Shown one piece after another: positions 41,008 through 43,364 of a stretch of 64,000 nucleotides of DNA (position 1 is its first letter; each line of letters begins with the position of its first letter). The translations under genes and the position numbers were made by a program. The notes under the pieces were generated by a model, which was given only the letters and a program-made list of their open reading frames with translations, did not search any database and had not been told where the DNA came from. Origin of the DNA: Caballeronia concitans (lineage in GTDB: Bacteria > Pseudomonadota > Gammaproteobacteria > Burkholderiales > Burkholderiaceae); assembly GCF_001544615.1 (NCBI RefSeq), contig NZ_FCNV02000001.1, forward strand, positions 558,001 through 622,000, given 5' to 3'.

Positions 41008-41425
<418 letters not shown>

Positions 41426-41487: not shown

Positions 41488-41910
41488 TCAGCGCTCGACG
41501 ATATCGAACGAATGCGTCAGCTCCGCCGTTTTCGCGAGCATGATCGACGCCGAGCAGTATTTGTCGTGCGACAGGTTGATCGCGCGCTCGACCGTCGCCG
41601 GATTCAGATTCTTGCCGGTGACCGTGAAATGGAAGTGGATCTTGGTGAACACCTTCGGGTCTTCGCTCGCGCGTTCAGCCTTGAGTGTCACCGAGCAGCC
41701 CTCGATCTCCTGACGGCTCTTTTTCAGGATCATCACGACGTCGTAGGCGGTACAGCCGCCCGTGCCGAGCAAGACCATTTCCATCGGGCGGGGCGCGAGA
41801 TTGCGTCCGCCGCCTTCCGGCGCGCCGTCCATCGCGACGAGGTGACCGCTTCCGGTTTCGGCGGCGAAAGCCATGCCGTCTTGTCCCATCCAGCTAACTT
41901 TACATTCCAT
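41488..41910 (-). CDS. OsmC family peroxiredoxin-like protein
   Basis: A 140-residue OsmC/Ohr-fold protein. Two cysteines expected at the active site are in LLGTGGCTAYDVV (about 67) and SHDKYCSAS (about 120), each in the family position. Members reduce organic or lipid hydroperoxides; this sequence resembles the YhfA subgroup, whose physiological role is less certain. The ATG at 41910 gives the standard MECKVSWMG start; a 14-codon longer reading is possible but unlike the family. It converges on rnpB. Confidence 0.92.
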   Translation of the reverse strand: MECKVSWMGQDGMAFAAETGSGHLVAMDGAPEGGGRNLAPRPMEMVLLGTGGCTAYDVVMILKKSRQEIEGCSVTLKAERASEDPKVFTKIHFHFTVTGKNLNPATVERAINLSHDKYCSASIMLAKTAELTHSFDIVER

Positions 41911-42147
41911 GCTTGGACTCCAGCCGCTTGACACGTGTTTCAGAGGTTTCATTGTAGCGGGTCATGCGTCCGCCGACCGCGCGCGGGTGCGCGCATTCAC
42001 CGGTTGACTGCTGCTATGGCGTGGCAGGCGCAGAGGAGCGGCGGGCTATTCCCATGATTCGAGAAAGGCTTCTAGTCGGCGATTAGCGGCACGGCGCATC
42101 GTAGGTTATTGTTTTTATTGCATTTATGAAGCAGAAGCGCATCTCGT

Positions 42148-42163
42148 AATGTGGGATAACATT
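42148..42163. promoter_or_regulatory. Inverted repeat upstream of the candidate sRNA promoter
   Basis: AATGT-GGGATA-ACATT, centred about 60 nt before the predicted start of the candidate sRNA, a distance typical of activator sites. It follows an AT-rich stretch (about 42100-42140). The rest of 41911-42147 holds only the presumed upstream region of the OsmC gene; I see no gene there. Confidence 0.4.
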
Positions 42164-42180
42164 TCACGATGCAAATCTCC

Positions 42181-42209
42181 TTGCCTCGGCGCACGAGCGT
42201 GCCTATACT
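42181..42209 (+). promoter_or_regulatory. Sigma-70 promoter of the candidate sRNA
   Basis: TTGCCT (42181-42186), a 17-bp spacer, then TATACT (42204-42209). Both hexamers and the spacing are close to consensus. Start of transcription is expected near 42216. Confidence 0.75.
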
Positions 42210-42215
42210 CGGCTC

Positions 42216-42308
42216 ATTGGTTGTCGCAGTCCGACAAATCTACCGTGTCTCCTCCACCTCCTCCTTTGGTGGATTAAACCCGAGCCTCAAGGCGCTCGGG
42301 TTTTTTTT
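42216..42308 (+). ncRNA. Candidate trans-acting sRNA with anti-Shine-Dalgarno loop
   Basis: About 93 nt with three hairpins. Stem 1: TTGTCG/CGACAA (42221-42226 / 42232-42237). Stem 2: TCCACC/GGTGGA (42253-42258 / 42268-42273) presenting the loop TCCTCCTTT, complementary to AGGAGGA. Stem 3: ACCCGAGC/GCTCGGGT (42278-42285 / 42294-42301) followed by eight T, an intrinsic terminator. A good promoter is placed upstream. The layout (CU-rich loop, rho-independent end, intergenic) is that of small RNAs that pair with ribosome-binding sites, such as CCUCCUCC-loop RNAs known in other proteobacteria and CU-rich Burkholderia RNAs. A 109-codon frame across it is rejected. Identity with any named RNA is not claimed. 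Confidence 0.72.
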
Positions 42309-42360
42309 CGTCTGCGCCGTCTGCAAGGGGCGAAGCTGCGAGAACAAGCATCGCAACCCT

Positions 42361-42390
42361 TTGACGCGCCGGGCAATTTCCCGCTATACT
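42361..42390 (+). promoter_or_regulatory. Sigma-70 promoter of rplM-rpsI
   Basis: TTGACG (42361-42366), an 18-bp spacer and TATACT (42385-42390). Expected start about 42397, leaving a leader of about 135 nt before rplM. Confidence 0.8.
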
Positions 42391-42396
42391 TCAAAG

Positions 42397-42531
42397 TTCT
42401 CTTTGCCACAAGCCCGCGAAGAGAAGCCTGTGAGAGCCTGCACGCGCCGTCGAGCGCAGCTCGTCGAGTGCACCTATAAGCAGGACCGAACACGGTAAAA
42501 GCAAAAGGGCGAATCAATTTTTGGATCGATC
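42397..42531 (+). other. Structured 5' leader of rplM
   Basis: About 135 nt with competing pairings: CCTGC (42437-42441) with GCAGG (42480-42484), and TGCAC (42439-42443) with GTGCA (42468-42472). Three bases are shared, so the two stems exclude each other. In Escherichia coli the L13 protein represses rplM-rpsI through the leader; whether this one does so is inference. Confidence 0.45.
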
Positions 42532-42960
42532 ATGAAGACGTTTTCCGCAAAAGCCGAAGAGGTGACGCGCGAATGGTACGTGATTGACGCGACGGATAAG
42601 GTTCTCGGCCGTGTCGCCAGCGAAGTGGCACGCCGTCTTCGCGGCAAGCATAAGCCTGAGTTTACTCCGCACGTCGACACTGGTGATTACATCATCATCA
42701 TCAACGCCGGCAAGCTGAAGGTCACGGGCAACAAGACCACGGACAAGAAGTACTATCGTCACTCGGGCTACCCGGGCGGCATTTATGAAACGACGTTCGG
42801 CAAGATGCAAGAGCGCTTCCCGGGCCGCGCGCTCGAGAAGGCAGTGAAGGGCATGCTGCCGAAGGGTCCGCTCGGCTACGCGATGATCAAGAAGCTGAAG
42901 GTCTACGCCGAAGCAACGCATCCGCATACGGCTCAACAGCCTAAAGCGCTCGAGATCTAA
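42532..42960 (+). CDS. rplM: 50S ribosomal protein L13
   Basis: A 142-residue L13 protein, of normal length. Family features are [19 protein letters not shown] near the start, [18 protein letters not shown] and YRHSGYPGG in the middle and [18 protein letters not shown] near the end. It binds 23S rRNA early in 50S assembly. It is followed 11 nt later by rpsI in the universal rplM-rpsI pair; the leader upstream is structured. Confidence 0.98.
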
Positions 42961-42971
42961 GGGGAGCCCAC

Positions 42972-43364
42972 ATGATCGGTAACTGGAACTACGGTACGGG
43001 CCGCCGCAAGAGCGCCGTCGCTCGTGTCTTCATCAAGTCGGGCAAGGGCGAGATCATCGTCAACGGCAAGCCCATCGCCGACTATTTCTCGCGTGAAACG
43101 TCGCTGATGATCGTGCGTCAGCCGCTGGAACTCACGAACCACGCCACCACGTTCGACATCAAAGTCAACGTGAACGGCGGCGGCGAAACGGGTCAGGCAG
43201 GCGCGGTTCGCCACGGCATCACCCGCGCGCTGATGGACTACGACGCAACGCTCAAGTCGCAACTGTCGAACGCAGGCTTCGTCACCCGCGACGCGCGTGA
43301 AGTGGAACGTAAGAAGGTCGGTTTCCACAAGGCACGCCGCAGGAAGCAATTCTCGAAGCGTTAA
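42972..43364 (+). CDS. rpsI: 30S ribosomal protein S9
   Basis: A 130-residue S9 protein with [14 protein letters not shown] near the N terminus and the basic C-terminal tail [10 protein letters not shown], which reaches the P-site tRNA on the ribosome. A GGGGAG ribosome-binding site stands before the ATG. Second gene of the rplM operon; hairpins at 43384-43400 and 43419-43453 close the transcript. Confidence 0.98.

Follow-up and report, generated by a model that had tools for sequence, protein, structure and literature searches.

Between an osmC-like gene and rplM lies a short stretch of DNA with the outward signs of a promoter, hairpins and a terminator, and the question that this locus raises is whether it encodes a small RNA of its own, to which family such an RNA would belong and which signal might control it. 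Within the 64,000-nt stretch of DNA that was analysed as a whole (the window), the earlier note had described a promoter-to-terminator small RNA of about 93 nt with an anti-Shine-Dalgarno (anti-SD) loop, a description that is supported as far as the sequence can tell. The promoter-like pair TTGCCT/17/TATACT that it named is present where it had been placed, as are the three hairpins ending in a T8 terminator, which were recovered by both fold and scan. The features of the locus are as follows.

42181..42186, + strand: -35-like hexamer TTGCCT, from the promoter scan
42181..42197, + strand: decayed PhaR/PhbF-type site in which the TGCN3GCA core is absent; most orthologues of other genera have the palindrome there
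42204..42209, + strand: -10-like hexamer TATACT, separated from TTGCCT by a 17-nt spacer, from the promoter scan
42216..42308, + strand: predicted primary transcript of about 93 nt, its start placed from the -10 box
42221..42237, + strand: 5' hairpin TTGTCG/CGACAA, from the predicted fold
42246..42309, + strand: match to RF02278 (Betaproteobacteria_toxic_sRNA), 69.6 bits against a gathering cut-off of 50
42248..42256, + strand: anti-SD site 1, TCTCCTCCA, invariant across the alignment (34 of 34 copies)
42253..42273, + strand: seed hairpin TCCACC/TCCTCCTTT/GGTGGA, from the predicted fold; its loop, 42259-42267, is anti-SD site 2
42276..42308, + strand: intrinsic terminator, stem 42276-42303 followed by a T run (T8), from fold, terminator scan and covariation
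41488..41952, - strand: osmC-like gene of 465 bp, divergent neighbour, from the ORF list and tblastn matches in orthologous loci
42532..42960, + strand: rplM (ribosomal protein L13), downstream neighbour, from the ORF list
41010-41422, + strand: RNase P RNA (class A), beyond the osmC 3' end, over the Rfam cut-off

The neighbours are presumably osmC and rplM (L13), names given on the basis of their sequences. Many of the loci fetched for comparison show the same gene order, RNase P RNA, osmC, small RNA and rplM. A separate promoter-like site, TTGACG-18-TATACT, lies on the + strand at 42361-42390 before rplM and leaves that gene a leader of about 135 nt. The closest rplM proteins in the named collection, from which very near records were possibly left out, are those of Caballeronia arvi (99%), followed at 98% by Burkholderia sp. 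8Y, Trinickia soli, C. glebae and Caballeronia sp.; by these identities the host is probably a Caballeronia or a near relative.

The small RNA and its family

The 104-nt stretch 42205-42308 folds at -34.4 kcal/mol compared with -23.3 (sd 2.95) for 200 dinucleotide shuffles, a z of -3.76 with no shuffle as low (0/200), and a promoter scan of 41500-43000 returned three sites where shuffles gave 0.5. The same 1.5-kb interval yielded one terminator against a shuffle mean of 1.5, which taken alone is not beyond chance and is the one result that favours a fortuitous promoter-hairpin-terminator arrangement in an intergenic stretch. Such an origin has a negligible probability and is rejected because of the covariance-model match, with an E-value of 5.7e-12 for the whole window, and the conservation of synteny, the RNA recurring in 47 of 80 loci; these two results are the decisive evidence. 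The earlier judgement that the arrangement is too orderly for chance holds for the covariance match, the synteny, the fold and the promoter scan, and does not hold for the terminator by itself.

Positions 1-64 of RF02278, the full model, are matched at 69.6 bits (E 5.7e-12 for the 64-kb window; gathering cut-off 50), and this RNA and the RNase P RNA are the only Rfam matches over cut-off in the window. The predicted structure has the architecture of the family, that is, two hairpins of which the second is an intrinsic terminator, together with C/U-rich unpaired stretches. Judged by this score and structure, the element is a member of RF02278, already known in kind, and is, as one would expect, orthologous to a small RNA that has been characterised. 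The proposal of a candidate small RNA is borne out at the level of sequence, while the known family, the published orthologue ncS27 and the six copies in the genome had escaped the first reading. Other families were rejected: NmsRb (RF02877) scored 33.2 bits against a cut-off of 52 and anti-hemB 25.1 against 49.5, and SorX, SorY and ncS16 each remained below their own cut-offs.

The own genome holds 6 RF02278 copies over cut-off among 22 matches at E<=10. In the family sample the model was matched over cut-off in 133 of 150 genomes, compared with 0 of 14 control genomes, and at E<=0.001 in 137 of the 150. The own-genome paralogues have a stem of the ATG...GAT type. Four own-genome loci, L004-L007, form another RF02278 class with a different promoter (GGTTTAT[AG]CT in L004-L006, GATTTATACT in L007) and without the PhaR core described below. 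Growth inhibition in Escherichia coli has been reported for the family (PMC4603805, PMC5688073); toxicity in E. coli is nevertheless not a general trait, since Bordetella pertussis S17 was reported not to be toxic there under the conditions tested (PMC11722255).

Orthology with ncS27 and conservation of the RNA

The ncS27 RNA of Burkholderia cenocepacia J2315 has been reported as a 92-nt transcript at complement 3666557..3666648, beside the 465-bp gene BCAL3349 at 3666923..3667387 (PMC4603805, PMC5688073), and BCAL3348 is named among ribosomal proteins (PMC5688073). The osmC-like gene of the window and BCAL3349 are equal in length (465 bp). By position, orientation and length, with coordinates taken from the papers, the RNA of the window is the orthologue of ncS27, also called bdhR1 on our reading of the papers' references. 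The two share the Rfam family, the junction and the orientation, their lengths are 92 and about 93 nt, and anti-SD stretches are present in both; they differ in host, that of ncS27 being B. cenocepacia, probably another genus, and the hairpin of the window is one C shorter than that of B. aenigmatica (L049), the stand-in for J2315 on which the comparison with the cepacia complex rests.

For the study of orthologous junctions, 80 named loci were fetched by rplM and osmC was located in them by tblastn. RF02278 was found over cut-off in 47 of the 80, on the rplM strand in 47/47, and in 47/47 the osmC match lay on the opposite strand at the far side of the RNA. The claim that the small RNA stands alone between osmC and rplM is right about the junction. 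The earlier note had named a lack of conserved loop and stems in aligned orthologous junctions as what would refute it, and these loci, 47 of which carry the RNA over cut-off, did not show such a lack. The positive loci include entries from Caballeronia, Paraburkholderia, Burkholderia, Trinickia, Cupriavidus and Ralstonia, as well as Pandoraea, Herbaspirillum, Collimonas, Glaciimonas, Undibacterium and Limnobacter. The other 33 loci had no RF02278 match over cut-off, 11 of them also having no osmC match in the fetched stretch; no entry from Massilia, Duganella or Janthinobacterium exceeded the cut-off.

The constant orientation towards rplM would also be expected of a cis-acting leader or attenuator of the L13 gene rather than an independent small RNA, and a short BCAL3348 5'UTR has been listed among possible cis-regulatory leaders (PMC5688073). 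This explanation is improbable: a terminator and its T run stand between the element and rplM, the second promoter-like site TTGACG-18-TATACT follows it, the RNA starts anywhere from 204 to 994 nt upstream of rplM across the 47 orthologues, and the own genome has five further copies over cut-off at other places. Even less probable is a small coding gene, although a mechanical frame of 109 aa does run across the RNA (42169-42498) and a putative 32-residue frame has been reported in S17L of B. pertussis (PMC11722255), because single bases differ in the hairpins of orthologues, as with the additional C of B. aenigmatica, and the 5' hairpin is missing altogether from some of them.

The anatomy of the RNA was followed in an alignment of 34 copies, comprising the window and 33 of the 47 orthologues after thinning for redundancy. 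Nine columns, TCTCCTCCA at 42248-42256, are identical in 34/34 copies; they sit 5' of the seed stem and run into it. The invariant pairing stretch is this 5' UCUCCUCCA and not the seed-hairpin loop, which varies between genera. The anti-SD loop put forward at first is present as TCCTCCTTT, and conservation among the anti-SD stretches is highest at 42248-42256. The seed stem hardly varies and for this reason gives little evidence of covariation, whereas four pairs of the terminator stem (42276-42308) show compensating double changes in 3, 4, 9 and 7 of the 34 sequences, the same pairs being broken or gapped in 5, 2, 5 and 9.

The 5' hairpin is predicted in many genera and orthologues with a changed sequence, and is absent from the predicted folds of Caballeronia arvi (L039) and C. 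glebae (L042). In L039, L042 and L043, which have no 5' hairpin, about six bases separate the -10 box from the TGTCTCC downstream of it, and the primary transcript of these loci would resemble the reported processed form of ncS27. Since a processed short form of ncS27 has been reported (PMC5688073), the 5' part seems dispensable.

Proposed pairing with ribosome-binding sites

On the basis of the sequence, predicted structure, family membership, synteny, conservation and multiple copies observed here, the element is most probably (at a rough probability of 0.93) an ncS27-type (bdhR1) double-hairpin RNA of RF02278 with its own promoter and terminator, which would damp translation by anti-SD pairing. 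By analogy with its published relatives, it would be transcribed from its own sigma-70-like promoter as an RNA of about 93 nt that stops at the intrinsic terminator; as has been described for ncS27, processing may then yield a short form beginning near UGUCUCC. The loop carries CCTCCTTT, which matches the anti-SD end of 16S rRNA, and the two C/U-rich stretches, TCTCCTCCA and the loop, resemble the 3' tail of that rRNA. In this way they could pair with the Shine-Dalgarno sequences of numerous transport and catabolic mRNAs and block ribosome binding, with slower nutrient use and growth as the likely outcome. In the own genome, AAGGAGGAG followed by N3-10 and ATG occurs at 7 starts compared with 1 for a reversed-pattern control, and the frames behind it include, by eye, an MFS-type transporter, a short-chain dehydrogenase and a class II aldolase, among others.

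The 2019 work of Sass is said, in a review, to have found that ncS27 affects the expression of genes for phenylalanine/tyrosine catabolism and carbohydrate transport. Overexpression of ncS27 has been reported to attenuate planktonic growth and its silencing to increase it, neither having a significant effect in biofilms, and for the double-hairpin RNAs 55-80% of the predicted interactions were reported to fall near gene starts (PMC5688073). The NmsR RNAs of Neisseria have been described as down-regulating TCA-cycle genes by means of anti-SD sequences, and the slow growth that they caused in E. coli vanished when the anti-SD sequence was mutated, a result that its authors give as data not shown (PMC5362039). 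Pairing with ribosome-binding sites is supported by the ncS27 work, the account of Sass 2019 and the NmsR work taken together.

Several known systems resemble the RNA of the window to different degrees. NmsRA/NmsRB (NgncR_162/163) of Neisseria are reported to have three stem-loops, two anti-SD motifs, sibling copies and a role in metabolic control (PMC5362039); the NmsRb model scores 33.2 against its cut-off of 52 on the window, and the likeness is an analogy, with an RNA that would work alike and is not a member of that family. The short form S17S of B. pertussis has a 5' stretch two mismatches from bdhR1, arises by processing and has a terminator, and on the other hand S17 has a precursor of about 190 nt, lies next to coq7 and is not toxic in exponential E. 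coli (PMC11722255). The RF02278 members ncS03, ncS05 and ncS62 are very short RNAs with two hairpins, for which no 5' hairpin is reported, unlike the RNA of the window (PMC5688073).

A PhaR/PhbF-type palindrome and a possible link to stored carbon

A sequence resembling TTGCRNYGCANMA over the -35 box is common to many of the orthologue upstream regions. The PhbF motif of Herbaspirillum seropedicae, footprinted at the phbF promoter, has been given as TG[N]TGC[N]3GCAA (PMC3206438), and the PhaR palindrome of Ralstonia eutropha as YTKNTGCRNYGCANMAR, with up to 3 mismatches accepted (PMC12849132). The core TGCN3GCA occurs within 120 nt upstream in 34 of 47 orthologues (mean 3.8 and maximum 8 in 60 dinucleotide-shuffle rounds), and the 17-mer YTKNTGCRNYGCANMAR in 28 of 47 at <=2 mismatches (shuffles 1.7, maximum 6) and in 36 of 47 at <=3 (9.1, maximum 16), comparisons whose significance the shuffles overstate given that the sequences are related. 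Controls within the same loci share this relatedness, and there the core was found in 1/47 of the 120-nt stretches before rplM and in 7/47 of the stretches further upstream. When the 64 triplet palindromes with a 3-nt spacer are ranked, TGC leads with 34 loci, the runner-up having 12, and TGC/GCA with other spacer lengths was found in 0 to 16 loci.

The position of the core is equally regular, as 32 of the 34 cores contain a TTGCNN hexamer that precedes a -10-like hexamer by 16-18 nt (17 nt in 31/32), the other two (L068 and L069, Ralstonia) having it downstream of the -10 box. The best-scoring family loci (L009-L038) carry the core in 26 of 30 cases, at -34 relative to the RNA start in 25 of them and at -33 in the other, a count that is biased to one paralogue class through the choice of the highest-scoring matches. 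In seven named genomes, 13 of the 30 matches examined out of 35 have the core, three of them away from the normal -35 position (L191 3' of the -10, L199 at -22 and L208 at -73), and each of the seven has at least one examined copy with a well-placed core. Two own-genome paralogues, L001 and L002, carry the exact PhbF consensus TGNTGCN3GCAA, as does the best phasin gene of that genome.

Not all copies share this feature. The core is missing from 13 of the 47 orthologues, including L047, L049, L052 and L053 (Burkholderia) and three Cupriavidus rows, and from the window copy and L004-L008, so that 4 of the 6 own-genome copies over cut-off lack it. The window has no TGCN3GCA in the 120 nt upstream of the RNA and no YTKNTGCRNYGCANMAR site at <=1 mismatch; one YTKNTGCRNYGCANMAR register there has 3 mismatches with one half broken, and the copy reads TTGCCTCGGCGCA where many other loci have TTGCGTCGCACAA. 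As the core has been lost there, and is also absent from B. aenigmatica and three further Burkholderia loci, PhaR control is not proposed for the window copy. For the family and for L001 and L002 we propose it from the promoter sequences, in a form that can be tested.

A phaR-type gene (PF07879) is present in the own genome and in 133 of 150 family genomes. The best phasin gene of the own genome (L119; sites 1902 and 1960) has an exact and a 1-mismatch PhaR palindrome upstream, 58 bp apart, a layout that recalls phaP1 of R. eutropha as described (PMC12849132). Among the five phasin loci checked, L120 has a 1-mismatch site about 47 nt before its likely start and L121-L123 have no near PhaR site, and the fetched stretch around the own phaR gene (L142) contains no site at <=2 mismatches. 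Genome-wide, TTGCNNNGCANCAA is not enriched (18 sites vs 29 for the reversed control), three of the 18 lying at the two RF02278 paralogues and the best phasin gene. The exact YTKNTGCRNYGCANMAR occurs at 8 distinct own-genome sites (L180-L187) against 2 for the control, four times as often, and on a brief inspection by eye of the flanks of the other seven, the phasin site is the only one at a gene that could be tied to PHB.

When 30 of 40 matches were compared by the presence of PhaR, the core was found in 14 of 22 loci of PhaR-positive and 2 of 8 loci of PhaR-negative genomes (Fisher p 0.10, only a guide as the genomes are related). Both positive loci of the latter group belong to the incomplete genome G053 (83%), without which the PhaR-negative count is 0/6 (p 0.016), and it is 0/5 (p 0.016) when the incomplete G086 (85%) is also set aside; in genus g15, the core is likewise missing from the loci examined in PhaR-positive genomes. 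The exact placement over the -35 box raises the odds of PhaR control and the weaker PhaR-negative comparison lowers them, which leaves them unchanged.

We consider it fairly likely that the anti-SD RNAs of RF02278 in Betaproteobacteria form a translational arm of the PHB-storage regulon, with PhaR/PhbF repressing them at the -35 palindrome. Bound over the -35 box, PhaR/PhbF would keep the small RNAs silent; once PHB granules form, PhaR would be sequestered and the RNAs released together with phasin, and translation of nutrient-uptake and catabolic genes would be damped. A precedent for control of a small RNA by a PhaR-type protein is MmgR of Sinorhizobium meliloti, which is reported to be negatively controlled by AniA (PhaR) and would offer a parallel circuit if this reading is true, although MmgR belongs to another family and to an alphaproteobacterium and is reported to lower phasin levels (PMC8401924).

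Among the papers listed by searches combining PhaR with small RNA terms, none joined the RF02278 family with PhaR. The main texts of the consulted papers that name RF02278 hold, apart from one reference title, nothing relevant on PHB metabolism, phasin or PhaR; their supplements, Sass 2019 or Kimelman 2012 may note the box, and a common upstream motif of three copies in Fig. S3 of PMC5688073 may be the same one. What is new here is the PhaR/PhbF-type palindrome on many RF02278 promoters.

If true, a place in the PHB regulon would account for the reported induction of these RNAs in glucose medium and biofilm. In glucose medium, ncS03 was reported to be induced 8.0-fold, ncS05 6.9-fold and ncS27 4.3-fold (PMC5688073), which fits a storage signal, ncS03 and ncS05 not being matched to particular loci; S17 is reported to be higher in the Bvg+ mode (PMC11722255). 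In conclusion, what matters is the promoter pattern: the PhaR-type box that covers the -35 in many copies suggests stored carbon as a signal, and PhaR control of RF02278, if true, would link PHB storage to translational damping.
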